Shown here piece after piece: positions 13,157 through 41,645 of a stretch of DNA of 46,650 nt. Positions within the stretch are counted from its first letter, which is position 1, and the number at the start of each line of letters is the position of its first letter. Below the pieces are notes generated by a model that did no database searches, was not told the origin of the DNA, and worked only from the letters and a program-made list of their open reading frames with translations. The translations under genes were made by a program, and so were the position numbers. Origin of the DNA: Mesoaciditoga lauensis cd-1655R = DSM 25116 (GTDB taxonomy: Bacteria > Thermotogota > Thermotogae > Mesoaciditogales > Mesoaciditogaceae); the NCBI RefSeq assembly GCF_000745455.1, contig NZ_JQJI01000017.1, positions 1-46,650 of the forward strand. Reading direction: 5' to 3'.

Positions 13157-13162
13157 ATTTAA

Positions 13163-14113: not shown

Positions 14114-14114
14114 C

Positions 14115-15137: not shown

Positions 15138-15150
15138 AAAATTCCTCCTC

Positions 15151-16895: not shown

Positions 16896-16915
16896 AATTC
16901 ACATCCCCCTTAGCT

Positions 16916-16953
16916 TTAATTAAAGAGTGGGGAACTCCCCACTCTTTAATTAA
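16916..16953 (-). promoter_or_regulatory. Intercistronic hairpin between binding-protein and permease genes
   Basis: A perfect 17-bp stem (TTAATTAAAGAGTGGGG and its complement) with an AACT loop on the plus strand. It has no long T-run beyond the stem. It is therefore more likely an mRNA-stabilising or attenuating element than a full terminator. Its position after the solute-binding gene is the classical one. Confidence 0.75.
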
Positions 16954-16963
16954 GTGTTAGATG

Positions 16964-18184: not shown

Positions 18185-18277
18185 GTTTACCCCTCCTTGT
18201 TGTTTTGTTATTTCCCGGAAAAAACCGGAATTTATTATTGCTCATTTTTATTCATAAAAATTCATTATCTTAACTAA

Positions 18278-18292
18278 TTATGATTATAAATG
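18278..18292 (+). promoter_or_regulatory. Candidate DeoR-family operator, upstream of the binding-protein gene
   Basis: TTATGATTATAAATG shares TTATGATTA-N3-ATG with a site just upstream of the DeoR gene (19260-19274, other strand). A motif present at both promoters of the locus is what an autoregulating local repressor would need. The surrounding 18185-18472 is otherwise a non-coding promoter region. Confidence 0.42.
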
Positions 18293-18472
18293 GTCACAAA
18301 GAAGAATCCAATTCTCAAAAACGGCTGTATTTTCGTTTCAAGTGGCATTAGAGCAGATTAAAAAGCATTATCTCTTGAAAGCTCAAAATATTTCCTGAAT
18401 TCTTTCTTTTCCCATCAAATGCATTTAAAATGGGAAGTCAAAAATGCATAAAGACTATCAAAAAAAGGATCA

Positions 18473-25390: not shown

Positions 25391-25426
25391 TAAAAAACGA
25401 GGCTGATCACGATTAACGATCAGCCT
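25391..25426 (-). terminator. Terminator of the 25453-37697 operon
   Basis: On the minus strand AGGCTGATC and GATCAGCCT pair around a 9-nt loop. The hairpin is followed by a T-rich tail (25392-25397). It lies 27 bp after the transketolase stop. Confidence 0.88.
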
Positions 25427-25452: not shown

Positions 25453-27684
25453 TTACGCCTTTTTTACGAACCTTTCTACCCCTCTCAATATATTTTCAGG
25501 ATCTAAGTGGGCTTCTTCTATAACTTCATCGAGGGTACCCCCGCTTCTCCATTTGCCATCCCAATCCGATGAAAGGCAATATTCGGCATTCTTTTTCGTG
25601 GCTATCCAATCTTCGACGGCCTTAAGCGATTCGTTTGTTATAACCATCGAATTCTTCCAATCTTCCCATGGAAGGACTTTTTCTCTATATTCAGAACTTT
25701 GCATATCGAAGAGTTCTTTTGAAGGAATAGCCACTATCTTTAAATTGTACTTTTCATCTAATTCGTCTATTACTTTAAGTAAATTGTAGGTAGACATGGT
25801 TCCTCTCACCAATATCGTTCCATCTTTCCTTCCTTCCTTGAAATCTCTCAAAATGTACGCTCCTCTTGCCGCTTCAAAGTGGGAAGGAATGCGAAGCTTT
25901 TCTCTGTTTGGAATCTCTATCGGAGGTCGCGTGAGATGAAGTGCCACTATCGGAATGTCTGTTGAAAATGCCGCTGCAAGCAAAACCGGCACTTCGTTCG
26001 CTTCCCATGGGTACAGGTTTATTATGTGTCCCTTTGGGAATAGCTGAGTGACGACAGGTGAGAATATTCCAAAGTGGGTTCGGGAATCATCTGCCGTTTC
26101 TGGACCGGAATGTCCAGCTATCCAAAGCACTTTGCCCAACTTTACAGGGCAATCCTGTGCCATTTGGGAAAATAGCCTGTATTCACCGTACTTCAAATAA
26201 GAAAATGAACCGTACGTCGAAGTGGCCATGTAAAAACCGTTAAACTCTTCAAATGGCTTGTCAGATAAATTGACACTTACCACGCCACAAGAAATCCCGG
26301 CATTTGTGAATTCAGTGATCTCCTGGGGAAGTAGCACACCATCTGGATTTTTCTCTTTTTCGTACCAACCGTATCCCTTAAAATCTTCAAATGGTTCTGC
26401 AAAACCGGATATATTCGTTGATTCGGCTAAGTCCGCCGATGCGGCCAGGAAGAGGGGACGATCGTATTTCCGTTTGCTCATGGCATTTATCCAGGCTCCC
26501 CATTTTCTCAAGGCATTTCTGTTAGCGGCTTTTGTTCCCGGTTCGAAGAAGATCTCTTCTGGATATTTTTTATAATCGAATAGCTCTTTGTCCTTGAATA
26601 TACCAGCGTTGAGTGTTACTTTTTTCTGAGGAATGCTTTCTGCTATGCTTACCATTTCATCTGTGAGATGTTTTACCAATTCTTCGTTCTCTAAAACAAC
26701 ATTGAGTGCTATCTGTAAATTTTGATACGTTTGTTCCGCGAACGCTTTACCTGCGGGTGCCGGTTTTTGGAATCCAACAAAGTCCACATTGTACTTTTGC
26801 ATGAATTTTTCCCGCGTTTTCCAGAAAATTTCAGAATTCGCTTTATGAGGCGTGCCGTGAGATTTGTTATCATAAATTCCGTATTCATATCCCTTACGTG
26901 TTTTAAACCACATAACATTTGGGGTGCGTTCTTTCTTGTTTTGCTCAATTTTATCGAAAGCGCCCAATACACATTTCCAATCATGGCCATTTTCACACCC
27001 AACGACATTCCAACCATACGGGAGGAACCAATCATCTGGCGTTCCGTGAACCACAGAACTTGTCGGCCTGTTATCTATACCGTAGTTGTTCCAGTCGATC
27101 AGCCAATAAAGATTGTCCAATCCTAAGGCCCATGCGGAGTTTTTTGATTCGTGCGATGCACCAGGTGTTAAGCCGCCTTCTCCTTCTATTGCCCACACCT
27201 TAACATCCGAAAGTCCAGCGCGTTTTAGTGCAAAAGCTTCCCCCACCGACGGTGGCAAGCCGTGGCCAGAAGGACCTGTGTTGAATTTAAGAAAGAGGGT
27301 TTTTCCAGAAAATTCAGCGTGCCCCGAAAGTCCTCCCCTATGCCTGAATCTCAAGAGATCTTCCAACAGCACTATACGTGATGGATCTATTTTGAACTTT
27401 TCATCTTTCGTTTCTTCAAATCGCTTCTTGAAAGCTTCTCCGATAAGCGCTAACGATGCGTAGATCAAAGGAACAGTATGGCCCGCACTTAGAATAAACC
27501 TATCGGACAGAGGATTTTCAGGATGGCGTATATCGTATTTCATCTTTCCGCTTAACAGCATAGCCCATAGCATATGCATTTTAGAGCGAGAGCCTCCGGG
27601 ATGTCCACTTTGCCGCAGGTTAAGTGTGAAGTCTATGAGCTGTCCCGTTACGTCTTTTAGAATCTCGAGTTCTTCAAAGTTCAA
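25453..27684 (-). CDS. Divergent full-length transketolase-like enzyme
   Basis: 743 aa, thiamine-diphosphate enzyme expected to transfer a two-carbon ketol unit. Transketolase landmarks are present but altered: GHPGGSRSKMH (substrate loop), SDRFILSAGHTVPLIYA, GEGGLTPGASHES and DWNNYGID (cofactor/Mg motif, Glu replacing Asp of GDG), ASADLAESTNISGF, and QEITEFTNAG (catalytic Glu). It is about 80-120 residues longer than housekeeping transketolase and departs from it in the substrate loops. That, and its place as last gene of a sugar-acid operon, suggest a specialised acceptor or donor. The start is TTG 27684 behind AGGAGGGAG. A dihydroxyacetone-type or other ketol-transfer role cannot be excluded. 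Confidence 0.85.
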   Translation of the reverse strand: MNFEELEILKDVTGQLIDFTLNLRQSGHPGGSRSKMHMLWAMLLSGKMKYDIRHPENPLSDRFILSAGHTVPLIYASLALIGEAFKKRFEETKDEKFKIDPSRIVLLEDLLRFRHRGGLSGHAEFSGKTLFLKFNTGPSGHGLPPSVGEAFALKRAGLSDVKVWAIEGEGGLTPGASHESKNSAWALGLDNLYWLIDWNNYGIDNRPTSSVVHGTPDDWFLPYGWNVVGCENGHDWKCVLGAFDKIEQNKKERTPNVMWFKTRKGYEYGIYDNKSHGTPHKANSEIFWKTREKFMQKYNVDFVGFQKPAPAGKAFAEQTYQNLQIALNVVLENEELVKHLTDEMVSIAESIPQKKVTLNAGIFKDKELFDYKKYPEEIFFEPGTKAANRNALRKWGAWINAMSKRKYDRPLFLAASADLAESTNISGFAEPFEDFKGYGWYEKEKNPDGVLLPQEITEFTNAGISCGVVSVNLSDKPFEEFNGFYMATSTYGSFSYLKYGEYRLFSQMAQDCPVKLGKVLWIAGHSGPETADDSRTHFGIFSPVVTQLFPKGHIINLYPWEANEVPVLLAAAFSTDIPIVALHLTRPPIEIPNREKLRIPSHFEAARGAYILRDFKEGRKDGTILVRGTMSTYNLLKVIDELDEKYNLKIVAIPSKELFDMQSSEYREKVLPWEDWKNSMVITNESLKAVEDWIATKKNAEYCLSSDWDGKWRSGGTLDEVIEEAHLDPENILRGVERFVKKA

Positions 27685-27711
27685 CTTTCTCCCTCCTATC
27701 TTTCTTCCAAT

Positions 27712-28755
27712 TTATATTAAATCTATTTTTATCACTTTTTTCTCTTTGCAAGATGTGTACAGACCTTCAACGATGGCCAAGGCGTTTCTTCCATCCTCTC
27801 CCTTGACATCTAATTCAACACCTTTGAGTATGGAATCAACGAAGTTTCTCAACTGTTTTTCATGCAATACGTAAGATATTTCTGGCCCAGAAGTTGAATT
27901 TTTTTTGTCGCCCATATCTTTCTTTTCTAAGATATTTTCGCCTTTGGTTATTATAAGCTCAGCTTCGTCGTTTACCAGAGCCGCGCTTCCATTGTCTCCG
28001 TACACGTCCACTCTTGAAAAGAATCCGGGATAGGCTGCCGTTGTGCTCTCGACCAAGCCTATTGCCCCGTTTTTGAATTTCAAAGATCCCACAACTAGAT
28101 CTTCCACTTCTATTTTATGCGCCATAGTTTTACAATAACCGAAGACCTCTTCAACTGGACCAACAAGGTATTGAAGAAGATCTACGTAGTGAATTGATTG
28201 ATTTATCAAAGCGCCACCACCATCAAGCTCCCACGTTCCTCGCCATTGTGCGCTGTCATAATATTCTTGGGAGCGATACCATCTCACCTGCATTCCTCCA
28301 AATCCTATTTTCCCAAGTTTGTTACTTTTAATGGCTCTTCGTATTTGTTGGACTCCACCAGAATAACGCCTTTGAGATATAACAGCCAACTTTACATTCT
28401 GTTTTTCACATGCCTTTATGAGGGCGTCCGCTTTTTCCAGGGTTACATCTATTGGCTTTTCCACAACAACGTGCTTTCCAGCTTTGGCAGCCTTTATTCC
28501 AATGTCCGCATGGGTACCGCTCGGGGTAGTGATGCAAATGGCATCTATATCTTTTCTTGCAAGAAGCTCATCTACGCTTGAAGAAATGTCACATTGAAAT
28601 TCATTTGAAAAAGCCAGGGCTTTTTGAAAGTTACGTCCAACCACGGCTACCAATTTCGCGTTTTCTATCTTAGATAGGGCTTTTGCATGAATTTTAGCGG
28701 CGTTTCCCGTTCCTATTAACCCGAATCTTACTTTATCTTGGAAAAGCTTTGGCAT
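27712..28755 (-). CDS. Gfo/Idh/MocA-family NAD(P)-dependent oxidoreductase
   Basis: 347 aa. An N-terminal Rossmann fold (VRFGLIGTGNAAKIHAKALSK) and the family signature EKPIDVT (catalytic Lys of the EKP motif) are followed by the C-terminal beta-sheet domain with GGGALINQSIHYVDLLQYLVG, whose His is the usual acid/base. The family includes inositol, glucose-fructose and uronate dehydrogenases. I start at ATG 28755 behind AGGAGGATG; the longer frame overlaps the upstream kinase gene. In this operon it probably oxidises a polyol or sugar acid, or reduces a keto intermediate. Confidence 0.93.
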   Translation of the reverse strand: MPKLFQDKVRFGLIGTGNAAKIHAKALSKIENAKLVAVVGRNFQKALAFSNEFQCDISSSVDELLARKDIDAICITTPSGTHADIGIKAAKAGKHVVVEKPIDVTLEKADALIKACEKQNVKLAVISQRRYSGGVQQIRRAIKSNKLGKIGFGGMQVRWYRSQEYYDSAQWRGTWELDGGGALINQSIHYVDLLQYLVGPVEEVFGYCKTMAHKIEVEDLVVGSLKFKNGAIGLVESTTAAYPGFFSRVDVYGDNGSAALVNDEAELIITKGENILEKKDMGDKKNSTSGPEISYVLHEKQLRNFVDSILKGVELDVKGEDGRNALAIVEGLYTSCKEKKVIKIDLI

Positions 28756-28757
28756 AT

Positions 28758-30089
28758 TCATCCTCCTAAAACGAATCCCAACGACGAGATCGTGTCTCCC
28801 AATCCAACTGAGATTTTCTGATTTTGAACTATTTTCGTTGGAAATAAGATAAATGTCGTTCCATTGGACTTCCATTCTTGATATTTTGCGTTAGAAAGTG
28901 GGATCTCAAGTATTTCTTTTATTTTGTCCTGCGCTATGTATCCATCTCTTGCCCTTTGAGCCGCTGCCAGCGCCGCAAACGCAAGGGCATTTCTTTCGCT
29001 TTCAAGGTCGTAGAAATTTTCATCAAAAGCAAGAAGGTAAAAACCTAGCGTGTGAAAATGTATCCTTTTGAGTCCCATATATCGTAATTTCGAAAGTACG
29101 CTGGAAATTTTTTCAACACTCCCAGCCTCAATTCCCGTTGTATCCATGCCCATATCGTTGGCTATCCATGAAAGTTCCACTTCGTTGGCACCCAGGCTAT
29201 CTGAAATTGGAAAGAGCACACTTTCCACGGCCTTTCTCACACCATTTCTCCTTATGGAAGCGAATTCAAGATGGAATTGTATATGAGGGTTCTTTTCTTT
29301 CATTTGCTTTATGAATTTTGCCACTTCAGCCATTCTATCTTTCGCACTTTCACCATTTGGGTAATTATCTCTCATTATGTGAAAACCTGAAACAAGAAAT
29401 TTGGAAATCTCTTTTGCATGGTCTAAAACGTATGAACGGAAAGGATCTCTTATTTCCAAACGGGAATTCACAGGGTTCCAAGAAGCTATGAACCTATTTG
29501 AACGCGGGCACACGTATTCTTTGCCTTTGATTTTTATCTTTTGACCTTGCGAAAATTCAAATATCCAATGGATGGCTTTCACGCCATGCTCAAGATGGAG
29601 ATTTTTTGGGTGTTGGAGTTCGTGATCATGAACCACAAAAAGATTTTTAGAATCGGGAAATAACCCTGCCAATTCTTTTGTCAAAGGATAAGCGTAAATC
29701 AACACTTTGGGAAATGAAAAGTTAGACAGCGTTTTTGCCATGTTGGCGGAAGTGCCACCCAATCGAAGAGTACCTGTCCCGAACTTTTCTTTTATCCACA
29801 AGTAAACTTCTTCCGAATCTATCATGATTTGAAGCGCTTTACCGTTGACAAATGAAAAGAGTAATCCTTCAAAAAAATCATCTTTTGTTTTGATAGAAGT
29901 TGGAATTGAATTCAAATCCTTTGGCACATCGACCAAAATTTCCTTTTCTACACTTGATGGATCAAGTTTCACCAGTCCATCTATGACCGAATGAAATCCC
30001 AAAGCTATCGTGGATGATTTTTTTGAATAGTTTACAGCCCAATTAATGGATTTTTCGTATATATCGTTTAAATTCATTCTATCATTCAC
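28758..30089 (-). CDS. ADP-dependent sugar kinase (archaeal ADP-glucokinase/phosphofructokinase family)
   Basis: 443 aa, ribokinase-superfamily enzyme that uses ADP and yields AMP. It matches archaeal ADP-dependent glucokinase throughout: RLGGTSANMA, FHLEFAS (Mg-binding Glu), GANEVELSWI, LKRIHFHTLGFYLLAF, FAALAAAQRARDG and the C-terminal FPTKIV...VGLGDTISS with the catalytic Asp. The family is mainly archaeal and animal and is rare in bacteria. The substrate is unknown. Since the operon carries a Cgl0159-type aldolase, I infer a keto-sugar or keto-sugar-acid rather than glucose. The start is taken as GTG 30089 (AAGAAGG 6 nt upstream); ATG 30077 is the alternative. Confidence 0.9.
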   Translation of the reverse strand: MNDRMNLNDIYEKSINWAVNYSKKSSTIALGFHSVIDGLVKLDPSSVEKEILVDVPKDLNSIPTSIKTKDDFFEGLLFSFVNGKALQIMIDSEEVYLWIKEKFGTGTLRLGGTSANMAKTLSNFSFPKVLIYAYPLTKELAGLFPDSKNLFVVHDHELQHPKNLHLEHGVKAIHWIFEFSQGQKIKIKGKEYVCPRSNRFIASWNPVNSRLEIRDPFRSYVLDHAKEISKFLVSGFHIMRDNYPNGESAKDRMAEVAKFIKQMKEKNPHIQFHLEFASIRRNGVRKAVESVLFPISDSLGANEVELSWIANDMGMDTTGIEAGSVEKISSVLSKLRYMGLKRIHFHTLGFYLLAFDENFYDLESERNALAFAALAAAQRARDGYIAQDKIKEILEIPLSNAKYQEWKSNGTTFILFPTKIVQNQKISVGLGDTISSLGFVLGG

Positions 30090-30105
30090 ACTATCAACCT
30101 TCTTA

Positions 30106-31488
30106 TCATCCGAGGTGGAAAAGATGTGGCAAGAACATTGAAATGGATGGCACATAAGTTATGAGCAATAAGACTGCTGCCATTGCTATGTAAAGTGGAA
30201 TCATTTCTTTTGAAACTTTCTCTATCGTTGTCTTTCCAACCGCGCACCCGACAAACAGTGTGTTGCCAACAGGAGGCGTACACAAACCTATGCCGAGGTT
30301 TATGAGCATTACTATGCCAAACTGTATGGGATCCATGCCAGCCCTTTGTACTATTGGCAAAAGTATTGGCGTCATTATAACTATAAGTGGAGCCATATCC
30401 ATAACCAGCCCCAAAGCCAGAAGAATGGCGTTAACCATTAACAGAATGACAACTGGATTAGAGCTTATGGAAGTTATGGTATCTGCAAAAAGAGAAGGAA
30501 TTTGTAAGTATGCCATGAGATACCCAAAAGCTGCTGCGTTTGCTATAAGGAAAAGTACCATTGCGGATGTTTTTGCAGATTCTCTGAAAGTGGCCAACAC
30601 GTTTTTCTTCGTCCAATTCTTTCTGTAAAAGGCGAAATAAGCTACCAATGCTAGTGCTGCACCAACGCTTGAAGACTCCGTGGCTGTGAAGAATCCAAAC
30701 ACTATACCGCCAACGACGATAAAACCAATTGCCAGTATTATCAAGGATCTTAAAAGAATCATTGGTATCCGTTTCTTTTCAACTTTTATACCTTTTGGGA
30801 AGTGTTTCACCGGTGCAAGAGCCAAAACGATGAGCATTTGGGCAAGACCTAAAATGATGCCCGGAATGTATCCCGCCATAAACAGAGCTCCCACTGACAC
30901 TCCACCAGCTGCAAGAGAGTAAATGATCATGTTTTGACTTGGAGGTATTATGATCCCCTCTTGTGAAGAGGTAACGGTTATTGCCGTTGCGAATTCGCGA
31001 GAATAGCCTTCTTTTTCCATCATCGGTATTACAACGGTTCCGATAGAAGCTGTGTCAGCCACGGATGAACCAGATATTCCTCCAAAGAGCATGCTCGCTA
31101 AGATGTTAACAAGTGCCAAACCGCCGGGAAGCCATCCCACAAGAAGATTTGCCAAATCCAAAAGATCGTTACCCATTCCGCTGTAATTAACAATTTGTCC
31201 TAAAAGAATGAAAAATGCTATTGCAACGAATGCAAACGAATTTATACCGTAAGTTAAGCTTTGAAATATAACGGCTATGGGCAATTGAACGTACAAGGCG
31301 GTGAAAAATGCCGAAATTCCCAATGAAAAAGATATGGGAACTCCCATTAATATAAAGAGAGCAAAACTTCCCCATAAAAACGTGATTTGAAGCTGGCTTG
31401 GAGACATGAATTGTACCCAGGGAGCGTTTAAGAATATGGAAACCACAAATAAAGCAAGACCTATGAGAATGGAAATCTTTATCTTCAT
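30106..31488 (-). CDS. dctM: TRAP transporter large membrane subunit (DctM)
   Basis: 460 aa with about twelve membrane helices; sodium-coupled translocation subunit. Family motifs include LFGGISGSSVADTASIGTVVIPMM, SSQEGIIIPPSQNMIIY and the C-terminal NLGIGLCTPPVGNTLFV. ATG 31488 overlaps the DctQ stop as ATGA, so translation is coupled; the longer upstream frame lies inside dctQ. With DctP and DctQ it forms a complete tripartite importer of the kind used for organic acids and hexuronates. Confidence 0.95.
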   Translation of the reverse strand: MKIKISILIGLALFVVSIFLNAPWVQFMSPSQLQITFLWGSFALFILMGVPISFSLGISAFFTALYVQLPIAVIFQSLTYGINSFAFVAIAFFILLGQIVNYSGMGNDLLDLANLLVGWLPGGLALVNILASMLFGGISGSSVADTASIGTVVIPMMEKEGYSREFATAITVTSSQEGIIIPPSQNMIIYSLAAGGVSVGALFMAGYIPGIILGLAQMLIVLALAPVKHFPKGIKVEKKRIPMILLRSLIILAIGFIVVGGIVFGFFTATESSSVGAALALVAYFAFYRKNWTKKNVLATFRESAKTSAMVLFLIANAAAFGYLMAYLQIPSLFADTITSISSNPVVILLMVNAILLALGLVMDMAPLIVIMTPILLPIVQRAGMDPIQFGIVMLINLGIGLCTPPVGNTLFVGCAVGKTTIEKVSKEMIPLYIAMAAVLLLITYVPSISMFLPHLFHLG

Positions 31489-31976
31489 TTTATCCCCCCT
31501 GTTTTCTTTGCAACGATTATTCTTATGATTCTTTCCGTGGAAAATACCATCGTTAAAATACCTCCAATGATAACAGGAATATAAAGCCATGCGTTAGATA
31601 TTCCCAATTCTGGCATTATTCCCGGTAATAAAGCCATTGAATAAGAACCAACTACCATGTAATATCCAAAATAAAATAAAAGACAAAACACGATGATATC
31701 CACTATTCGTTTCGTTTTCGGCGGGAGGGTATCAGCAAAGGCGGCCACTCTGATATGCAAGTTGCTTCTAACGCCCGTACCTGAAATGAGCATTGCCATC
31801 CATATCATCATCACGATGGTGAGACTTAAAGACCAAGTAAGAGGAGCATTAAGCGCATCTCTGAATACCACTTCGAGCAACGAGACAACTAGCATAATTC
31901 CTATGGCAACGATGCCAGCCCATTCCATGGCTTTTTCCACGATATCCAAAATACTTTCAATTGTTTTCATGTTCAC
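31485..31976 (-). CDS. dctQ: TRAP transporter small membrane subunit (DctQ)
   Basis: 163 aa with four membrane helices. FRDALNAPLTWSLSLTIVMMIWMAMLISGTGVRSNLHIRV is the conserved DctQ core. The start is GTG 31976, five nucleotides after GAGGTGAT; ATG 31970 is the alternative. A strong intercistronic hairpin separates it from dctP. Confidence 0.93.
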   Translation of the reverse strand: MNMKTIESILDIVEKAMEWAGIVAIGIMLVVSLLEVVFRDALNAPLTWSLSLTIVMMIWMAMLISGTGVRSNLHIRVAAFADTLPPKTKRIVDIIVFCLLFYFGYYMVVGSYSMALLPGIMPELGISNAWLYIPVIIGGILTMVFSTERIIRIIVAKKTGGIK

Positions 31977-31998
31977 AGTGGATCACCTCAAAAGATCT

Positions 31999-32020
31999 CC
32001 GGGGAGGGAAACCTCCCCGG
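31999..32020 (-). promoter_or_regulatory. Intercistronic hairpin between dctP and dctQ
   Basis: CCGGGGAGG and CCTCCCCGG form a perfect GC-rich 9-bp stem with a GAAA loop (plus strand). There is no T-run. It probably protects the upstream dctP message or attenuates read-through, giving more binding protein than membrane subunits. Confidence 0.78.
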
Positions 32021-32032
32021 ATTTATTTTTGA

Positions 32033-33007
32033 TTATTTTGTATTTCTTATTTCGTTTATTATGTCTTTGAATTGGCTGTATTTTGCGTAAACCGGCTCAA
32101 CCGCTTTCTGGAAAAGAGCTATATCTTCTGGCGTCGGATAATAGAAATGAACGCCGGCTTTCTTCAATTTTGCCAAATCCTGTTGAACTTTTTCATTCCA
32201 CAATTGTCTTTCATATAACGATGCTGCCATAGCCGCAGTTTTGAAAATCTCTTTTTCCTCAGGCGTTAAGGAATTCCAAGCGTTGAGGTTCATAAAGAGA
32301 ATCTCAGGCACTCTTGAATGTCCGTCGTAGGAATAGTAAGGAGCAACTTGGTAGAAGCTCATGGTGTAATAGCTTGGTATGTTATTTTCAGCACCGTCTA
32401 TAACGCCTGTTTGGAGAGCCGTAAAGACTTCTCCGTATGCCATTGGAACTGGGGAACCACCCATGTCTTTGACCATTTCGACGAAAACAGGAGCCTTTTG
32501 GACACGTACTTTGAGACCTTTAAGGTCAGAAGGTTTCAAAATAGGCGTTTTTCTCGTGAAGAAACTTCTCTGACCGGAATCGAAATAGGTGAGCCCCATT
32601 AATCCAGCAGATTTCATGTCTTCAAGTAATTTCTTTCCTACCGGGCCATAAAGCACTTTCCACTCTTGTTCCGAGCTTGAGAAGATGTAAGGAAGAGACA
32701 AAACACCAAGTTCGGGAACAAAGGATGCCATTGGAGCTGCATTTACCCTGTTGAGTTGAATGATGCCGGCCATGGTTTGCTGAACCGTTTGCGTTTCTGA
32801 ACCAAGCTGCCCACCGTAGTACACTTTGATGTTTATCTTGCCGTTTGTCATTTCCCTTACGATGTTGGCAAAGAACTGGTCTGCCATCGTAGTTGGATAC
32901 CCTGCCGGTTGATCTTCTGCCAGCCTCCAAGTAACGGCTAACACGCTCAAACTAGCCACTGAAAGCATGAGCGCGAAGATCAAAATGATACGTACCTTCT
33001 TTTGCAT
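32033..33007 (-). CDS. dctP: TRAP transporter solute-binding protein (DctP)
   Basis: 324 aa. The signal peptide ends near LAVTW. The mature protein has the DctP landmarks: GGQLGSETQTVQQTMAG, LKGLKVRVQKAPVFVEMVKDMGGSPVPM (carboxylate-binding Arg in RVQ), and YGEVFTALQTGVIDGAENNIPSYYT. The conserved Arg means the ligand carries a carboxylate, which fits a uronate or aldonate substrate for this operon. AAGGT/GGAGGTGG precedes ATG 33007. Confidence 0.94.
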   Translation of the reverse strand: MQKKVRIILIFALMLSVASLSVLAVTWRLAEDQPAGYPTTMADQFFANIVREMTNGKINIKVYYGGQLGSETQTVQQTMAGIIQLNRVNAAPMASFVPELGVLSLPYIFSSSEQEWKVLYGPVGKKLLEDMKSAGLMGLTYFDSGQRSFFTRKTPILKPSDLKGLKVRVQKAPVFVEMVKDMGGSPVPMAYGEVFTALQTGVIDGAENNIPSYYTMSFYQVAPYYSYDGHSRVPEILFMNLNAWNSLTPEEKEIFKTAAMAASLYERQLWNEKVQQDLAKLKKAGVHFYYPTPEDIALFQKAVEPVYAKYSQFKDIINEIRNTK

Positions 33008-33054
33008 TTAGTTCCACCTCCTATTTTCTATCTCCCCTTCATTCAGGGAAATTA

Positions 33055-33483
33055 TCAGCTTGTGTATTTACCCATCAGTGGAGTCCATCCACCGATTTGT
33101 ACCCTTTCAAGTTTGAATCCTGTTATCTTGTAAATGAATATCTCATTTGTGACGTTCACCGTTGCTTTGAACAAATGCCCGCCTACCAACTTCTTTTCGG
33201 GATTTGCAAGTGCGACGTGAATGTGGGCAAAAGGCTTCCCTTCTTTTGTTTCTATGTTTCCGGTCATTGCGACTAATTCATGGGGTGTGTCAATTTGAAT
33301 TTTTTCGTATTCTTTTCCGTTGAACCAACCTATTTCGAAGTCTTTGAGCATGCCCATTCCGGACATAATCACGCCGGTTTCTATCGAATACTTTTCAATA
33401 ACGGAGTAAAGCGATTCATAAAAATCGTCTCCTCCATCGAATCTTGCAAAGATAACGTTTCCATCTCTCATGTCAAAAATCAT
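33055..33483 (-). CDS. PPC/DUF296-domain protein
   Basis: 142 aa comprising a single PPC (plant and prokaryote conserved) domain. GVIMSGMGMLKDFEIGWFNG, HIHVALANPEKKLVGGHL and a central beta core are typical. The His residues of HIHVALA and GGHL cluster in the fold and may bind metal. Prokaryotic members have no firmly known role; in sugar operons they may act as enzymes or ligand sensors rather than DNA binders. The start is ATG 33483 behind AAGGAGGAAG. It lies between the aldolase fusion and the TRAP genes. Confidence 0.85.
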   Translation of the reverse strand: MIFDMRDGNVIFARFDGGDDFYESLYSVIEKYSIETGVIMSGMGMLKDFEIGWFNGKEYEKIQIDTPHELVAMTGNIETKEGKPFAHIHVALANPEKKLVGGHLFKATVNVTNEIFIYKITGFKLERVQIGGWTPLMGKYTS

Positions 33484-33505
33484 ACTATCTTCCTCCTTCA
33501 CATTT

Positions 33506-35653
33506 TTATGTTAAAGTTTCTTTGAAAACATCTCTTAATTCTTGGAAATTTGCATTTCTTATCTTAAGCATTTCTTCAAGGGATTCCATTGCGGAGAGCC
33601 CATCGTGGACGGTTCTGTACACCGCGTACATCACAGCGCCTGGATCGTCATTGCCGGGGAAAAGAATGTTCCTTCCAACCAGAGCACCCCGTACATTTGG
33701 TCCGCTTTCAAGAGCCTTTGAGATATTTTCTATCGTGTAAGTTGGATCGCCTGTAGATTCACCACCAAGGATCAATATGGGAAGAGTGGTGGATCTTGCT
33801 ACCCTCTCAAATCCATCTACGTATGGGATCTTTATCCACGTTTTCGCGGTTGAACCGCCTATTCCAGAAGCTATTCCAACTATTTTTATCAGCTCATCTG
33901 CGTCTAGAATGGTTTGATAAGGGGAGTTTTCATCTGGACGATTAACCGGCAACGGTTCCAAGAATACAGGAAGGCCTTTTTCGTTGCATTGTCTTACGGC
34001 TTCCGCGCACGCTTGAAGTGTTCTTATGGACCATCTTGAATAATGGCCAGTCTCAAGTCTGAAGAGCAATTTACCAGCATCCAAGTTGTTCTTTATCAGA
34101 TCTTCTGGCCAATACGCTGTGATCATGTCATCCATTTCGTATTCAATTCCAGAAAGGCCTGACCTGTTCATGCTGCCGATGATCACTTTGTTGTCCATAA
34201 AGCCCTTTCTTCCGGATTTTTTGTAAAGATATTCGATCAGGGCCAATTCGTCTATTATGTCTGGCGTAGCCATAACACCATCGACGTATCCCAAAGATAG
34301 TGTCCTCACTATCCTGCCAAGATATTCCAGCCTGTCCCCCATTGCTGTCGGAGAATCTCCCACGCTTGTGACGCGTCTAGCTGGATGATCGGCGGCCAAT
34401 ATCACAAGATATCCATCTTCTGTTAAGCTTTTCCGTTTTTTTCTTGCTTTTAAAGTTTCCGTTATTATTTCTGGATTTTTTATCCTCAAATCGGTTAACT
34501 TGAAGAACGCCCATTCTGGAAAGTATTCACGCGTTACGAATTTGTATTTTCCAACTCCATAAATAACATCCTGCCATGTTCGTGCATCGTCATAAAAAGA
34601 TTTCGCGTGTTGAAGGACCGGCACGCTGCCTTCTCTTCCCCTAGGCATAACTTCGAAGCCAACAGGACCTTTGTATCCCATTTCATGGAGGGCTTTGATA
34701 AAATCGGCAACTTCTCTAAGCTTTATTGCCCCGTTTGGGTAGGCAAAAGAAACATGGGAATCGCCGTAATTCGGATCGTTTGGATCTAAGACACAGTTTC
34801 CTATATGAACGTGCATGAGGTACGGAGCAAGATATTGGAGCACTTCGGGTGCTTCAGGCTCCTCCACTATTTCTTCTCTAACGAGCCCTTCGTACCTTTG
34901 GGCAGTTGTGGCTGAACCGGAAGCATTCTCAGCCGGAATTTCAACGTTTACGCTTTCATGTCGGGTATGCACGTTTCTGATCAAGAACATGTGCGTTAAA
35001 TCGTAAAGAAGGCCAAACTCATCGTGATGATATTCATCTCTTAATCTTCTTGCTATCTCAATAGCTTCAAAGGTTGGCCCTATTAATTGGTTGTGAAATC
35101 TTCCGTTTGGATCGTTTACCCTATCAAACATCTCAAGGATGATCTTCATAGGCTTTCTTTTAAGCGATTTGGCAACTTTATTTGAGTAATCGCAGATCTC
35201 ATGTATGGATCTTATCAAGGAAAGTTTTGCACTTTCGCGCAAAGTTTCTCCCGGATCGCGCCCGCTCATAAGCGTAAAACCTTCGGCGTTGACCTCGTAA
35301 GCTTGGTCTATCATCTCTTTAAGACGGTTAACCGCATTTATTCTGTCAAGCTCGTTAATGGATGATATGTCCGTTGGAGCGTATCCTTCTTCGTTCAATA
35401 TCTGAACCGGTTGGGAAGAAAAGAAGATGTGAAGTTTCGTTTTCGACAGGTATTCAATGGCTTTCTTTCTCAAAGAAGGATCTTTTATTCGAGTTAATTC
35501 TATTCCTCCAAAATATGGATCCTCTGCCAAAACTCTGAGAGACTCCATGAGATAACGCTCTCCTGGTTCTCCTCTCAACATTGAATTCGTGTTTTGTCTG
35601 CCTGGGAAAGCCATGGCATGAACGACTGTTACGATGTTATCTTTGAGGATCAA
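33506..35653 (-). CDS. Fusion of an AP-endonuclease-2-type sugar isomerase/epimerase barrel with a Cgl0159-type aldolase
   Basis: 715 aa made of two TIM barrels. Residues about 1-385 resemble xylose-isomerase-like/AP endonuclease 2 proteins, with metal-site candidates KIILEMFDRVND, YDLTHMFLIRN, HVHIGNCVLD and GFEVMPRG. Residues about 400-705 resemble the Cgl0159 family of actinobacterial inositol clusters: VILAADHPARR, PTAMGDRLEYLGRIVR, VDGVMATPDIIDELAL, VIIGSMNRSGLSGIEYEMDD, AKTWIKIPYVDGFERV (Schiff-base Lys region) and LPILILGGESTGDP. I infer an epimerase that channels a phosphorylated or free keto-sugar acid to an aldolase. It overlaps the DeoR gene by 17 nt. Confidence 0.83.
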   Translation of the reverse strand: MILKDNIVTVVHAMAFPGRQNTNSMLRGEPGERYLMESLRVLAEDPYFGGIELTRIKDPSLRKKAIEYLSKTKLHIFFSSQPVQILNEEGYAPTDISSINELDRINAVNRLKEMIDQAYEVNAEGFTLMSGRDPGETLRESAKLSLIRSIHEICDYSNKVAKSLKRKPMKIILEMFDRVNDPNGRFHNQLIGPTFEAIEIARRLRDEYHHDEFGLLYDLTHMFLIRNVHTRHESVNVEIPAENASGSATTAQRYEGLVREEIVEEPEAPEVLQYLAPYLMHVHIGNCVLDPNDPNYGDSHVSFAYPNGAIKLREVADFIKALHEMGYKGPVGFEVMPRGREGSVPVLQHAKSFYDDARTWQDVIYGVGKYKFVTREYFPEWAFFKLTDLRIKNPEIITETLKARKKRKSLTEDGYLVILAADHPARRVTSVGDSPTAMGDRLEYLGRIVRTLSLGYVDGVMATPDIIDELALIEYLYKKSGRKGFMDNKVIIGSMNRSGLSGIEYEMDDMITAYWPEDLIKNNLDAGKLLFRLETGHYSRWSIRTLQACAEAVRQCNEKGLPVFLEPLPVNRPDENSPYQTILDADELIKIVGIASGIGGSTAKTWIKIPYVDGFERVARSTTLPILILGGESTGDPTYTIENISKALESGPNVRGALVGRNILFPGNDDPGAVMYAVYRTVHDGLSAMESLEEMLKIRNANFQELRDVFKETLT

Positions 35654-36434
35654 CTTTATCCCCTCCTTTTTTGGGTGCCTTTATAACTTCTATTCCAAAA
35701 CTTTTAAGCATTTTTTCCGTTTCTGAAGAAATGCCTTCATCTGTTATCACGTGATCTATTTCATCCAAATTGGCGTAAATGGCAAAAGATGGATGAGTGA
35801 ATTTTGAAGAATCTGCTACTATGAATATCTCACTTGCTTGCGAAACCATCATGTTCTTTATTTTGGCTTCATTCACGTCTGGCGTCATAAAACCCTCGCT
35901 CGAAAAGCCGGTGGCACCTATAAAAGCTTTATCAACGTATATCTTCTTCAAATTTTCTTCGCAAAATGCACCTATCAAAGAGAAGCTGTTTTCCCTTACG
36001 GTTCCACCTAAAACTATAAGATCAACGGCGGTTCCCACGAGTTCCGTTGCGATGAAGAGATTGTTCGTCACGACCGTAAGTGGATGAAGATGTGTGCGCT
36101 TTATCTCACGCGCCATTGCCAGCGTTGTTGTGCCGCTGTCCAAAATTATGCTGTCGCCCACCTTTACAAATTCCAATGCCCTCTGTGCAATTGAAAGTTT
36201 TTCTTCAACATGCTGCTTGGACTTTTGAATGAAATTCCATTCTACTCTCGTGTGAGAAGGAAGTACTGCTCCCCCGTGTGTGCGGATGATTAAACCCAAT
36301 TTTTCCAGTTCTTTTAGGTCTTTTCTTATGGTTACACTTGTCACACCGAGATACTTGGAAAGATCTTTAACGGTCACTTCTCCTCTTTGCTTTATAAGGT
36401 CTATGACCTTTTCTTTTCTGGTTTCGTCTAGCAT
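35637..36434 (-). CDS. DeoR-family transcriptional regulator of the TRAP/uronate-type operon
   Basis: 265 aa. DeoR winged helix (VIDLIKQRGEVTVKDLSKYLGVTSVTIRKDLKELEKLGLIIRTHGGAV) plus the DeoRC sensor domain with SIILDSGTTTLAMA, DKAFIGATGFSSEGFMTPD and IVADSSKFT. It is the second gene of the operon it probably controls, so it would be autoregulated. The start is ATG 36434 behind GAGGTAA; a TTG one codon earlier is less likely. Confidence 0.93.
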   Translation of the reverse strand: MLDETRKEKVIDLIKQRGEVTVKDLSKYLGVTSVTIRKDLKELEKLGLIIRTHGGAVLPSHTRVEWNFIQKSKQHVEEKLSIAQRALEFVKVGDSIILDSGTTTLAMAREIKRTHLHPLTVVTNNLFIATELVGTAVDLIVLGGTVRENSFSLIGAFCEENLKKIYVDKAFIGATGFSSEGFMTPDVNEAKIKNMMVSQASEIFIVADSSKFTHPSFAIYANLDEIDHVITDEGISSETEKMLKSFGIEVIKAPKKGGDKVDPQR

Positions 36435-36449
36435 CAAATTACCTCGCTT

Positions 36450-37697
36450 TTAGAACTTTCTATTCAAAAATTCCTCGAATTCCCCTCCGAACAACGTTTT
36501 CATATCTCTTCTCATCTCTTCTTCAGAAACGTTCCAACCGTCGTCCAATATCTGTGAATACTTTTCTATCAGCACGTTTTTTATGATCTCTTTTGAATGC
36601 TTCCACTTGTACATAACTTGATCTAAAACACGCGCATCGGAGTGTTGGACTGTAAATCCCCATCCCAACATTTCAATGCGTTCGCGAGTCAACTCTTCAA
36701 TTATGGAAGGATTGTTCAGGAACCACCAGCATCCGAAAATGTGGATGTTCCTGAATTTACGGGCGGCAACGACCAACTCGTGTTGATTTTCTCTTGAAAG
36801 CATGGTTATTATGAACTTGTTATGTGGATAAGTTTTCGCCAGATATTCAAGTGATTCGATGTTTGCCTTTCCCACTGAGTCGCCTGCAAGGAGCAACTCT
36901 GGATTTGTAAGCTTTTTCACGCCTATCATCATAGCGAATGGGATATCCCTTTCTCTTGAAACTTCAACGATGGCCTTCTCTATAATGATAGATGTCTCGT
37001 TATCTGAAGGAACTTTGAGCGTTGGGGGAAGGGATGCTGCCATGTAAAGGGGATCCATTTTGTCGATCCAATCGTTCAAAAATCTTTTTATCTCTTCCAA
37101 CGTCTTTTCCGTCAATTTTTCTGTGACGTCATATCCCCATTCTTTTAGCTTTGGATAAGTGGTGGGCCATTTGACCAAAAGCGGATCTATCCTAAGTGCA
37201 CTTTTGAACCTTTCATCTTTTTCATGCCCATTTTCCCAAACTTCTCTTTCTGCATCTACAAAAGGATCGTTTGTCATGACAACGTACTTGATATTTGCCT
37301 TTTTAAAGACCGTGTCTATGTAATTACTTACGTTCTGGTTTTCAAAGTAATTCCTGTACGAATCCAATCTTCTTTCGTACACCTCTAAGCCAAGTTCTTC
37401 TAAGACGGTTAAAACACCTCTGGTAGCTTCACTGATGGGGGTTCTATCGATGAAAAGGGTTTTCCATATAAAATCTGCTTGTTCCCTCTTGGACATGCTC
37501 CAAAATTTTTCATAGGGCATATCGGTGTATCTCATCGCTTCTGCCACAAGATAGTGATAAACCAGCAGTTCGTCTATTCCCCAGAGTAGCAAACTTCCGA
37601 AGCTTTTATCAAAAATGTGAGTGTGCACGTCTATGATAGGAGTTTCGTTCATTATCTTCTCTATCAGTTCTCCCAACTCATGTTTTTCAACCTTCAT
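36450..37697 (-). CDS. Uronate isomerase (UxaC)-like amidohydrolase-fold enzyme
   Basis: 415 aa. It resembles glucuronate/galacturonate isomerase: PIIDVHTHIFD (metal His-x-His), FFEN... RLDSYRNYF helices, GCWWFLNNPSIIEEL and GFTVQHSDARVLDQVMYKWKHS (Asp-Arg signature near the C-terminus). It is shorter than classical UxaC (about 470 aa), so it may belong to a side branch acting on another aldose acid or a phosphorylated sugar. It is the first gene of the operon, with GGAGGGATAAAA before ATG 37697. Nothing else of the usual KDG pathway (UxaB, UxuA, KdgK, KdgA) is present here. Confidence 0.85.
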   Translation of the reverse strand: MKVEKHELGELIEKIMNETPIIDVHTHIFDKSFGSLLLWGIDELLVYHYLVAEAMRYTDMPYEKFWSMSKREQADFIWKTLFIDRTPISEATRGVLTVLEELGLEVYERRLDSYRNYFENQNVSNYIDTVFKKANIKYVVMTNDPFVDAEREVWENGHEKDERFKSALRIDPLLVKWPTTYPKLKEWGYDVTEKLTEKTLEEIKRFLNDWIDKMDPLYMAASLPPTLKVPSDNETSIIIEKAIVEVSRERDIPFAMMIGVKKLTNPELLLAGDSVGKANIESLEYLAKTYPHNKFIITMLSRENQHELVVAARKFRNIHIFGCWWFLNNPSIIEELTRERIEMLGWGFTVQHSDARVLDQVMYKWKHSKEIIKNVLIEKYSQILDDGWNVSEEEMRRDMKTLFGGEFEEFLNRKF

Positions 37698-39179: not shown

Positions 39180-40625
39180 TTACAGATTTAGCGTTGGAGC
39201 TAATTTGCCTTCCCAGAAGAAATTCGGAATTTCGGGTTTTTTAAAGGGAGCTTTTGCCTCATTTATGGCTTTTAAGTATCCTTGAGCCGTGGCATTCCAC
39301 GTATATTTTTCTTTTACTCTCATCAAAGCTTTTCTTTGAAATGTGAGATAGACATCTACGTTTTTCAAAAGTTCTGTGAATCCTTTTGCGATTTCAGATG
39401 GAACTTCTGGATTCACCAACACTCCATACTCTTGACCTGATTCTTTCAGTATCTCAGAAGGGCCACCGTTTTTAGTTGCTACCACCGGCAATCCGCATGC
39501 CATGGCCTCTATGATGGATAGTCCAAAAGGTTCGTAAAGGGCGGGGTTGCAAAAGATAGACTTTTTCTTCGAAGCGATTCTGTAAAGCGAAGCCAATTCA
39601 TTTTGACCATTTGCCTGGATAAAGAAAACACGATCTTCTGCTTTTTCCTTTTGAATCAAATTAACCATTTCAGAAAGCACGTTTTTTTCATTTTCTTCAA
39701 GATTTTTGTACTCTTCATACACGTTTTTCATGCCACGAACGACTATCAAGAAATTCGCGTGATTTTTGAGCCATTCATCATTTAAATACGCTTTTAAAGC
39801 TGAAATGTGATTTTTCTTTTGTTCTATTCGACTGGAAAGTATTATGAGCGGAAGATCAATCCTTGAAGAAGTGGCGTACTTGGCAACCACATTTTCCAAT
39901 CTTTTTTCCATCTGCTCATCTTGTGCAGAAGAATGTTCGTTGAAAATCTTCAAATTCACGCCAGGCGGAATGACTTTGAATTTTTCATCCTCTTCCACGC
40001 TTATCCATCCTTTGTAAAGTTGATGGGAGTACTGTTCAAATCTTTCCATCGAGGTGCTTACGACGTTAAAAGATGAGTACTTCATAGCGGTTCTTTCTGC
40101 TTGAATTCGTGTAGAGAAATTGTATTTTGTGTCCATTTCTTCGATGTTTTGCTTGGTCACGTGAAGTTTATCCATCTTTTGTGCACCAAGTGAGTGAGCG
40201 GTAAAGGAATAAGGGATGTTTGTTATACTGGCAAACATAGCGGCAGATATACCTCCATCACCGTAATGCCCTGTGACAAAATCTGGCATTTCCCCTTCAG
40301 ATTGATAAAATTTCTCTATTCCTTTGACATATTCTTTTAGATAAGGCCAAAGCTTTTCTTTCGGAAGAAATTTTTTCCCTCCAAAGTTTATCCTAACTAT
40401 ATTGAGGTTGCTTACACCTGGATAATGATCAATTTTAGAAGAAAACTCAGGCCATTGAGGATCTTCTATTCTTCTGGTGAAAATATCCACCTTTATCCCA
40501 AGCGATGCCATTGCTGTTGCCACTTCTTTTACGTAAACGAGTTGCCCGCCAAAATCTGGATGAGATGTCCAATAACTGTCATGCGGATCAAAATTTCCTT
40601 GAGGGTTGAAGAACGCTATTCTCAA
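39180..40625 (-). CDS. GT4 glycosyltransferase, sucrose synthase / sucrose-phosphate synthase-like
   Basis: 481 aa retaining GT-B transferase. The N-terminal acceptor domain carries FNPQGNFDPHDSYWTSHPDFGGQLVYVKEVATAM, typical of the sucrose synthase/SPS group. The C-terminal nucleotide-sugar domain has LSSRIEQKKNH and the E-x7-E motif in NPALYEPFGLSIIEAMACGLPVVATKNGGP. The sucrose-phosphate phosphatase domain is absent. Cotranscription with a PfkB sugar kinase (a fructokinase candidate) favours reversible sucrose metabolism. A mannosylfructose- or glucosylglycerate-type product is also possible. TTG 40625 follows the PfkB stop directly, with GAGAGGATGAG as ribosome binding site. Confidence 0.86.
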   Translation of the reverse strand: MRIAFFNPQGNFDPHDSYWTSHPDFGGQLVYVKEVATAMASLGIKVDIFTRRIEDPQWPEFSSKIDHYPGVSNLNIVRINFGGKKFLPKEKLWPYLKEYVKGIEKFYQSEGEMPDFVTGHYGDGGISAAMFASITNIPYSFTAHSLGAQKMDKLHVTKQNIEEMDTKYNFSTRIQAERTAMKYSSFNVVSTSMERFEQYSHQLYKGWISVEEDEKFKVIPPGVNLKIFNEHSSAQDEQMEKRLENVVAKYATSSRIDLPLIILSSRIEQKKNHISALKAYLNDEWLKNHANFLIVVRGMKNVYEEYKNLEENEKNVLSEMVNLIQKEKAEDRVFFIQANGQNELASLYRIASKKKSIFCNPALYEPFGLSIIEAMACGLPVVATKNGGPSEILKESGQEYGVLVNPEVPSEIAKGFTELLKNVDVYLTFQRKALMRVKEKYTWNATAQGYLKAINEAKAPFKKPEIPNFFWEGKLAPTLNL

Positions 40626-41579
40626 TTAACTCATCCTCTCATCATTTGTTTTGTCGTTATTATGAAGATAATTTTCGACGATTTTTTTCGCACTCGGAAG
40701 AGGGGTGTCAGAGCCCACGTTTTCAACTCTGAACGCCGCCGTGGCGCTTCCAAATTTTGCCGATTCGAATATATCATTTCCCTTTAGTAGAGAGTAGTAC
40801 ATCCCGGACCAAAATGCGTCTCCAGCTCCTGTGGAATCCACCACTTTTCTTGCAAGAGATGGCATTTTCCTTATTGCCTTTCCGTTTGAAACCAAAGCCC
40901 CATCTTTTCCCAACGTTAGGACAACGTTTTTGACTCCGAGCCGGTGGAAAGTCTGAATATATTTTTCTGGTGTCATATCCCCTAAAAGGCATTTTGCGTC
41001 ATCTAATGAGGGTTTCATAAGGAAGATATCTTTTAGCATTTTCTTTATAAAAGAAGTTCCATTTCCTTCCTTTTCCCACAATATTTTTCTGTAATTTGGA
41101 TCGAAACATATCTTTACATTCCGTTTTTTTGCGAGTGAAATGATGCTTAAAACAGTTGAACGCGAAGGTTCCCTTGAAATGGGCCAACTGCTAAAATGAA
41201 TTAAATCCACTTTTGTGATAAGCTTTTCCGCATTTTCTGGAAGTTTAAGCTGAAAATCAGCGCCTCTTAACGGAAGAAAATCTGGCGTACCTTTTGATTT
41301 TGAGACCAAAACCACGGATGTTGGATAAATTGGATCAAATTGGATATACTTCGTTTCCATATGTTGACTTTTTAATTTTTCAACCAGTGCCTTTCCAAGG
41401 GAATCGCTTCCAACTCTTGAAAGAAGAATAGGGTTTATTCCTAAAGAAACAAGATTGGCTGCTATGTTGGCCGGTGAGCCGCCAAAGTGTTTTTCGAATG
41501 TTTTTGCTTCGGATAGATTTTTGACGTATTCTTTGGATATCAAGTCTATAAGTAGTTCACCTATTACCAAAATATTCAA
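40626..41579 (-). CDS. PfkB-family sugar kinase (fructokinase-like)
   Basis: 317 aa ribokinase-fold kinase. FGGSPANIAANLVSLG is the N-terminal PfkB signature. DSTGAGDAFWSGMYYSLLKG is the C-terminal one, with the catalytic Asp and anion hole. LRGADFQL resembles bacterial fructokinases. I place the start at TTG 41579: frames opening at 41645 or 41627 would translate the -35/-10 promoter found at 41616-41645, and GAAGTGA precedes the TTG. It shares an operon with the GT4 transferase, whose start codon lies just after this stop. Confidence 0.9.
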   Translation of the reverse strand: MNILVIGELLIDLISKEYVKNLSEAKTFEKHFGGSPANIAANLVSLGINPILLSRVGSDSLGKALVEKLKSQHMETKYIQFDPIYPTSVVLVSKSKGTPDFLPLRGADFQLKLPENAEKLITKVDLIHFSSWPISREPSRSTVLSIISLAKKRNVKICFDPNYRKILWEKEGNGTSFIKKMLKDIFLMKPSLDDAKCLLGDMTPEKYIQTFHRLGVKNVVLTLGKDGALVSNGKAIRKMPSLARKVVDSTGAGDAFWSGMYYSLLKGNDIFESAKFGSATAAFRVENVGSDTPLPSAKKIVENYLHNNDKTNDERMS

Positions 41580-41615
41580 CGTTTTCACTTCGCTTCTTGT
41601 TGTTTTTGTTGTTTC

Positions 41616-41645
41616 AATATATACCATGATGTTTTGATTTGTCAA
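41616..41645 (-). promoter_or_regulatory. Sigma70-type promoter of the PfkB-GT4 operon
   Basis: Minus-strand TTGACA (41640-41645), 18-bp spacer, TATATT (41616-41621). The predicted start lies near 41609, giving a leader of about 30 nt to TTG 41579. Confidence 0.75.

Follow-up and report, generated by a model that had tools for sequence, protein, structure and literature searches.

A Thermotogota operon that may encode a redox-neutral route from hexuronates to pentose phosphate using an ADP-dependent-family kinase

A ten-gene operon and its conserved core

The window (the whole 46,650-nucleotide stretch of Mesoaciditoga lauensis DNA that was analysed) carries on its minus strand an operon of ten open genes, running from 37697 to 25453, that are tightly packed and end at a terminator. 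Its features are:

36450-37697, minus: uronate isomerase of BH0493 type (phmmer to BH0493 structures; without a PF02614 match)
35637-36437, minus: DeoR-family regulator (DeoRC and HTH_DeoR)
33506-35653, minus: fusion protein of 715 aa, AP_endonuc_2 plus Cgl0159 (Pfam, alignments and the context of relatives)
about 34520-35653, minus: N-terminal sugar-isomerase barrel of the fusion, proposed hydroxypyruvate isomerase
about 33506-34510, minus: C-terminal Cgl0159-type class I aldolase of the fusion
33055-33501, minus: PPC/PCC-domain protein (PF03479)
32033-33007, minus: DctP, TRAP binding protein of hexuronate type (top PDB matches 4n8y and 4x8r)
31485-31976, minus: DctQ, small TRAP permease (PF04290)
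30106-31488, minus: DctM, large TRAP permease (PF06808, 374 bits)
28758-30077, minus: ADP-dependent-family sugar kinase, proposed ketohexonate 1-kinase (PF04587, 253 bits)
27712-28755, minus: Gfo/Idh/MocA dehydrogenase, IolG-like, accessory (PF01408)
25453-27684, minus: divergent transketolase, proposed hydroxypyruvate:glyceraldehyde-3-phosphate transferase (Transketolase_N/C)
25400-25426, minus: Rho-independent terminator (11-pair stem, 5-nt loop, T tract)

The genes are separated by short gaps or overlap, and Shine-Dalgarno-like sequences precede most of the start codons; the starts of DctM, the ADP-kinase and the MocA gene were re-set to 31488, 30077 and 28755 respectively. The initial annotation had described a minus-strand gene string closed by a terminator, and this is what is found: all ten genes are open, and the stem with its T tract lies at 25426-25400. 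Its family assignments also hold, with profile matches for DctM, DctQ, DctP, the PPC protein, the fusion, DeoR, the kinase, MocA and the transketolase. It had proposed a search for the same gene set in other genomes. The full gene order is kept in the Thermotogota genome L003, with protein identities of 55-86% and the MocA gene split, so the arrangement is not due to chance and the ten-gene operon is real. The operon hosts are heat-loving Thermotogota.

A smaller module, consisting of the isomerase-Cgl0159 fusion, the ADP-kinase and the divergent transketolase, is found in other Thermotogota too. The three genes co-occur in 103 genomes (Fisher p 8e-11 to 1e-9, ignoring shared ancestry), and a DeoR regulator is present at every intact module locus read. 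Of the genes that had been grouped together, the transketolase is a core member, and the MocA dehydrogenase and the TRAP genes lie outside the conserved core. The MocA gene was not found at the module loci of Athalassotoga, g32 and g36; the model that fits its product best is IolG, at 168 bits where the cut-off is 355. A homologue of the PPC protein adjoins IolO in the inositol clusters of g36. Neither MocA nor PPC has a part in the pathway proposed below, and this counts against that model. Searches of plasmids gave no match for the uronate isomerase, and matched the fusion as single domains only.

Uptake, isomerization and the KDG enzymes

The structures closest to DctP (4n8y and 4x8r) are TRAP binding proteins with bound galacturonate and glucuronate. 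R147, R168 and N208 match the Arg/Arg/Asn residues with which other DctP proteins bind glucuronate, with spacings of 21 and 40 residues compared with 20 and 40 in STM3169. In Athalassotoga the corresponding operon also contains genes for a GH4 glycosidase and for a GH2 protein that is most similar to beta-glucuronidase. The imported substrate is thus most likely a hexuronate, probably glucuronate and possibly galacturonate. The import of a uronate that had been suggested is supported by the DctP matches and ligand set, and the broader 'sugar acid/polyol' is narrowed to a hexuronate here, and an inositol-derived ketohexonate in relatives.

The first gene of the operon had been termed UxaC-like. 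It gives no match to PF02614 (the Pfam UxaC family); the description is nevertheless correct, since phmmer aligns the protein over its full length (residues 6-413, E = 8e-156) with the structures of the BH0493 uronate isomerase. It is proposed to convert a hexuronate to D-fructuronate or D-tagaturonate, and this homology supports the isomerization step as it was originally envisaged.

The genome is 99.96% complete, and a genome-wide family search found no UxuA, no PF01081 KDPG aldolase and no PF02614 UxaC. The stated absence of KDG-pathway enzymes therefore holds for these three families, which define the test. Both UxuA and KDPG aldolase were detected in T. maritima. Among the module genomes they are mostly absent, UxuA occurring in one (G008) and PF01081 in three, a depletion that is not significant alone (Fisher 0.46 for UxuA and 0.09 for KDPG aldolase). 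A hexuronate or ketohexonate route other than KDG is well supported overall.

In two g36 genomes the module lies beside, and divergent from, a Thermotoga-type inositol cluster (IolM-IolG-IolN-IolO). The listed intermediates of the Thermotoga inositol route end in D-tagaturonate (PMC5931981). The front ends of the module are mutually exclusive: the BH0493-type isomerase is found in eight genomes, IolN in six and both in none, and IolN was not found in the window genome. Both front ends would yield 5-ketohexonates. Since g36 would feed in tagaturonate, the C4 epimer of fructuronate, the aldolase would need either relaxed specificity at C4 or an epimerase, which speaks against the pathway proposed below.

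A proposed pathway and its alternatives

The kinase matches PF04587 over its full length, and the motifs GLGD, HxE and NEVE are seen in alignments, in keeping with the phosphorylation by an ADP-dependent-family kinase that the initial annotation had proposed. It has Gln where aligned glucokinases and phosphofructokinases of solved structure carry the acceptor-site Glu, and it scores under every equivalog cut-off for ADP-dependent glucokinase or phosphofructokinase. Its probable use of ADP, like the likely substrates and products of the pathway enzymes generally, is assigned at the level of the family.

The C-terminal domain of the fusion matches the Cgl0159 family with 246 bits, and the Lys of its WIKIPY motif aligns with that of LsrF; together these are consistent with the aldol cleavage suggested earlier. 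In actinobacterial iol clusters the Cgl0159 gene follows iolC. The N-terminal domain scores well below the cut-offs for both the hydroxypyruvate isomerase Hyi (TIGR03234; 12 bits, cut-off 353) and the 5-keto-L-gluconate epimerase IolO (30 bits, cut-off 300). A fold search with a predicted model (mean pLDDT 64) placed it in the superfamily only, i.e. with xylose isomerase, tagatose epimerase and IolO-like proteins. Identity with IolO was ruled out because a separate, true IolO gene accompanies the fusion in g36. Its proposed role as a hydroxypyruvate isomerase is taken from the context of one relative, a standalone protein whose gene follows that for glyoxylate carboligase and precedes those for a 2-hydroxyacid dehydrogenase and glycerate kinase. 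In the Athalassotoga clade the presumed first metal ligand of this domain is Val, which counts against the assignment.

The divergent transketolase keeps the equivalents of the catalytic H26, H66, H100, H261, E411 and H473, with Lys or Ser in place of R358. It scores 122 bits against the transketolase equivalog (cut-off 682), and a housekeeping-like transketolase also exists.

We propose the following pathway. The TRAP PQM system would bring in the hexuronate, and the BH0493-type isomerase would convert this to D-fructuronate or D-tagaturonate; both steps are suggested by close homology and genome context. From family chemistry and context, the kinase might then phosphorylate the primary hydroxyl beside the ketone, and the Cgl0159 aldolase could split the resulting ketohexonate 1-phosphate into DHAP and tartronate semialdehyde, much as the position of related genes in iol clusters suggests for the cleavage of 2-deoxy-5-ketogluconate-6-phosphate. 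We note that the latter has the same C3/C4 configuration as fructuronate-1-phosphate. For the remaining steps we infer that the fused N-terminal barrel would isomerize tartronate semialdehyde to hydroxypyruvate, and that the divergent transketolase would transfer its two-carbon unit to glyceraldehyde-3-phosphate, giving xylulose-5-phosphate and CO2. A hexuronate would be converted overall to pentose phosphate and CO2 without a redox step. The N-terminal isomerase had been placed before the kinase in the initial annotation; the order is probably different, and the domain most likely acts after the aldolase. This exact chemistry is the best explanation, if at somewhat less than even odds. We put at about 0.42 the probability of a new redox-neutral pathway that starts from a hexuronate, or from inositol by way of tagaturonate: an ADP-dependent kinase would act on the ketose acid, a bifunctional aldolase-isomerase would cleave the product to DHAP and tartronate semialdehyde and pass on hydroxypyruvate, and a dedicated transketolase would form xylulose-5-phosphate and CO2.

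The N-terminal domain could instead epimerize ketohexonates ahead of the kinase step, merging fructuronate and tagaturonate, with tartronate semialdehyde passing to glycerate for phosphorylation and the transketolase merely reshuffling sugar phosphates. Its weak similarity to IolO and a predicted fold that would fit tagatose 3-epimerases and xylose isomerases agree with this, as do the different epimers that the uronate and inositol front ends would supply. Glycerate kinase is present in 7/7 genomes checked, so that reduction of tartronate semialdehyde to glycerate is possible. However, the nearest relatives of the domain are not known epimerases and one has a hydroxypyruvate context, the core has no dedicated reductase, and a dedicated divergent transketolase is left unexplained given the housekeeping-like one. 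We consider this explanation unlikely.

Less likely again is that the transketolase acts first, as in the sulfo-transketolase pathway, moving a two-carbon unit straight from fructuronate to glyceraldehyde-3-phosphate. The four-carbon uronate left with xylulose-5-phosphate would be isomerized by the N-terminal domain to 3-oxotetronate and phosphorylated by the kinase, and Cgl0159 would decarboxylate 3-oxotetronate-4-phosphate to DHAP and CO2. The net stoichiometry equals that of the preferred pathway. The transketolase does belong to the core, and the superfamily of the N-terminal domain includes 2-oxo-tetronate isomerases, IolO itself scoring against that model; but the fused domains would serve non-consecutive steps, and relatives of the two domains occupy aldolase and hydroxypyruvate slots, Cgl0159 proteins not being found in a decarboxylase slot. 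More improbable still is a different acid or polyol as substrate (an aldonate or inositol derivative), the uronate isomerase being a relaxed homologue. The IolG-like MocA protein and the inositol genes beside the module in relatives point that way, against which stand the uronate-type matches and binding residues of DctP, the glucuronidase-like GH2 gene within the Athalassotoga operon and the lack of IolN in the window genome.

Relation to known pathways

The Ashwell pathway (UxaC-UxuB/UxaB-UxuA/UxaA-KDG) shares the start, i.e. uptake by TRAP or other transporters and aldose-ketose isomerization to fructuronate or tagaturonate. In the pathway proposed here the ketohexonate would by contrast go straight to the kinase, with neither a reduction nor a dehydration step, in a genome with no UxuA, PF01081 or PF02614. 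The lower part of the Bacillus and Corynebacterium iol pathway (IolC kinase and DKGP aldolase) likewise applies a kinase and an aldolase to a 5-keto-hexonate-type acid to give DHAP, and the Cgl0159 aldolase domain, encoded after iolC in actinobacteria, is common to both. The kinase here is however PF04587 rather than IolC, the operon lacks IolB, IolD and IolE, and the C3 product would be tartronate semialdehyde instead of malonate semialdehyde. The Thermotoga inositol pathway (IolG-IolM-IolN-IolO), whose end product is D-tagaturonate, adjoins the same module in g36; T. maritima has UxuA and KDPG aldolase, whereas the module-bearing genomes mostly have neither.

The galacturonate pathway of L. 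suebicus also leads from a hexuronate to pentose phosphate and is redox-cofactor-neutral (PMC6978723). It employs a mannonate kinase and a 6-phosphomannonate epimerase, proceeding via mannonate and 6-phosphogluconate, while the pathway proposed here would dispense with reduction and use an aldolase and a transketolase. Breakdown of an acidic hexose with a transketolase occurs in the sulfo-transketolase pathway, which is not known to involve a kinase/aldolase fusion and acts on sulfoquinovose rather than a hexuronate. The route had been thought to be new; in the largely non-subscription literature searched we found no description either of a uronate-hydroxypyruvate-transketolase route or of fructuronate with an ADP-dependent kinase and an aldolase.

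If correct, the pathway would be a further route for the use of uronic acids, in addition to the KDG and oxidative pathways. It would explain how deep-branching Thermotogota have a uronate isomerase yet mostly lack mannonate dehydratase or KDPG aldolase, would give bacterial ADP-dependent kinases a catabolic role, and would point to a substrate for Cgl0159 aldolases encoded outside inositol clusters. The module is compact, with three core proteins and the isomerase, and a redox-neutral route from uronate to pentose phosphate would help in engineering the fermentation of pectin and glucuronoxylan.

The operon and the probable entry of hexuronate

The initial annotation described a string of ten minus-strand genes closed by a terminator. 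Window sequence and family searches bear this out for every gene; the spacing is close, and the operon ends in an 11-pair stem with a T tract. The sugar genes considered here are:

37697-25453, minus strand: the ten-gene operon, with a proposed role in hexuronate catabolism
33506-35653, minus strand: the 715-aa fusion protein, a sugar-isomerase barrel (N-domain) followed by a Cgl0159-type class I aldolase
12218-19243, minus strand: a second DeoR-controlled sugar operon, by eye
39180-41645, minus strand: a sucrose-phosphate-synthase-like glycosyltransferase gene adjoining a PfkB-type sugar kinase gene, by eye

The genome (Thermotogota; 2.17 Mb, 99.96% complete; window on contig C13) has its nearest sequenced locus in a Mesoaciditoga MAG, where the fusion is 98% identical. 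A search elsewhere for the same gene set, as had been proposed, recovered the full order in another genome (L003): isomerase, DeoR, fusion, PPC, DctP, DctQ, DctM, ADP-kinase, MocA, transketolase. Upstream of the operon, at L003 330-6460, a tartrate dehydrogenase gene (TTC) exceeds its cut-off, an IolB-like one falls short of its own (118 bits) and a transketolase gene is split; genes for phosphoglycerate kinase and glyceraldehyde-3-phosphate dehydrogenase were recognised there by eye.

The isomerase, called UxaC-like in the initial annotation, gave no Pfam detection and is nonetheless homologous over its full length (E=8e-156) to BH0493 of B. halodurans, which was deposited under the name uronate isomerase. 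DctP is closest to structures 4n8y and 4x8r, whose ligands are galacturonate and glucuronate (PMC11668362), and keeps R147, R168 and N208 at a spacing near that of residues 150, 170 and 210, which bind hexuronate in STM3169 (PMC7660916). The Athalassotoga clade has an ABC transporter in place of the TRAP genes, and GH2 and GH4 genes between PPC and the ADP-kinase. The best model for the GH2 protein is beta-glucuronidase (489 bits, slightly below the cut-off of 544); the GH4 protein carries the NCBIfam family label alpha-glucosidase AglA and matches 1vjt. We take 1vjt to be TM0752, an alpha-glucuronidase, for which a literature search gave no confirmation. It is very probable that the operon imports and isomerises a hexuronate.

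Two other gene groups lie nearby. In the 12218-19243 operon an ABC transporter, SIS-domain isomerase, BadF/NagK-like kinase and LacD-like tagatose-bisphosphate aldolase, read by eye, suggest amino-sugar use; counterparts lie a few kb from a decayed uronate operon in G015, another Thermotogota genome (L045). The glycosyltransferase-kinase pair at 39180-41645 suggests sucrose metabolism.

A probable route avoiding KDG

The enzymes of the KDG route had been claimed missing, and searches of the window genome for UxuA, PF01081 aldolase and PF02614 UxaC found none, with T. maritima positive in the same searches; these three families were the scope. Among the 16 Thermotogota genomes with the core module (fusion, PF04587 ADP-dependent-family kinase and divergent transketolase), PF01081 occurs in 3 and UxuA in 1. 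PF01081 is present in 17/20 IolN genomes without the module versus 2/6 with it, and overall depletion in module genomes is not significant on its own. We put the probability of a ketohexonate route avoiding KDG at about 0.8.

A proposed order of kinase and aldolase, with a possible transketolase tail

The ADP-kinase retains its family motifs. It has Gln (10/10 sequences compared) where aligned solved glucokinases and phosphofructokinases have Glu, and the acceptor is therefore probably neither glucose nor fructose-6-phosphate. In the Cgl0159 domain the lysine that lines up with the LsrF lysine is retained. The Cgl0159 gene of actinobacterial iol clusters comes directly after iolC, in one cluster just before methylmalonate-semialdehyde dehydrogenase; this is the place of the aldolase that converts 2-deoxy-5-ketogluconate-6-phosphate to DHAP and malonate semialdehyde. 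By stereochemical derivation, D-fructuronate-1-phosphate matches that substrate in configuration at the two carbons on either side of the bond that is split, with a difference of one hydroxyl; its C3 product would be tartronate semialdehyde. On balance we favour kinase, then aldolase, giving DHAP and tartronate semialdehyde.

The N-domain would isomerise the aldolase product, the fused domains performing consecutive steps. Of the standalone relatives found, TIM-barrel proteins from E. gilvus and Thermus come closest to it (E about 2e-35); the match to IolO is far weaker (3e-5), and there is no significant similarity to E. coli Hyi. The E. gilvus gene is flanked on one side by glyoxylate carboligase (636 bits), whose product is tartronate semialdehyde, and on the other by genes for glycerate kinase and a D-2-hydroxyacid dehydrogenase from the hydroxypyruvate-reductase superfamily, an order in which an isomerase making hydroxypyruvate is expected at that slot. 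A more distant Klebsiella homologue adjoins a 2-hydroxyacid dehydrogenase; on plasmid locus L114 (5932-12705) another sugar isomerase, a transketolase and a transaldolase are also near. The Thermus context is uninformative. The predicted N-domain structure is weak, fold search resolving the superfamily level alone, and Val at the presumed first metal ligand in the Athalassotoga clade counts as a doubt.

Transketolases classically use hydroxypyruvate as their irreversible donor, which would explain a dedicated transketolase. The catalytic residues are retained in this enzyme, and R358 of the phosphate site is replaced by Lys or Ser. A further transketolase, of a housekeeping-like type, is encoded in module genomes (e.g. 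G000:C1:78731 in the window genome). We advance the hydroxypyruvate/transketolase tail tentatively. A reductive branch is possible, since glycerate kinase is present in 7/7 genomes checked. MocA is limited to TRAP-type operons and their relatives; PPC accompanies both uronate and inositol clusters.

Distribution and front ends of the module

The three module proteins, each searched for in 103 genomes, co-occur (Fisher p 8e-11, 3e-11 and 1e-9, ignoring shared ancestry). In G003 (family f4; L107 3035-7868) an ABC transporter, an 829-aa protein whose N-terminal domain is GH67 and a DHDPS-family aldolase precede the divergent transketolase, which may therefore serve another uronate-linked route there. 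Genus g20 (family f7; L109 6799-8124) has a different, distant PF04587 kinase (28% identity) with an FGGY sugar kinase gene close by, and lacks the other module components.

In genus g36 (family f10) the module, ordered transketolase-DeoR-fusion-ADP-kinase, is divergent from an inositol cluster of IolM, IolG, IolN, PfkB kinase, IolO, PPC and ABC transporter, with IolM, IolN and IolO above equivalog cut-offs. A short contig of a third g36 genome, G098, carries DeoR and transketolase genes and an IolM-like one. According to the intermediates given in PMC5931981, the Thermotoga-type inositol route passes through 5-keto-L-gluconate and ends at D-tagaturonate.

In the G015 and G016 lineages, where no uronate isomerase was found, the operon is in decay. 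G015 (L045 8500-10330) has its MocA and transketolase genes intact, with the fusion and kinase next to them reduced to fragments; G016 (L110 5117-8528) retains PPC and transketolase alone.

Among the 16 module genomes the front end is a BH0493-type isomerase in 8, IolN in 6, both in none and neither in 2, which are G015 and G016 with their decayed loci. Two unrelated front ends that both make 5-ketohexonates thus converge on the same three genes, and this is the strongest evidence on what the module consumes.
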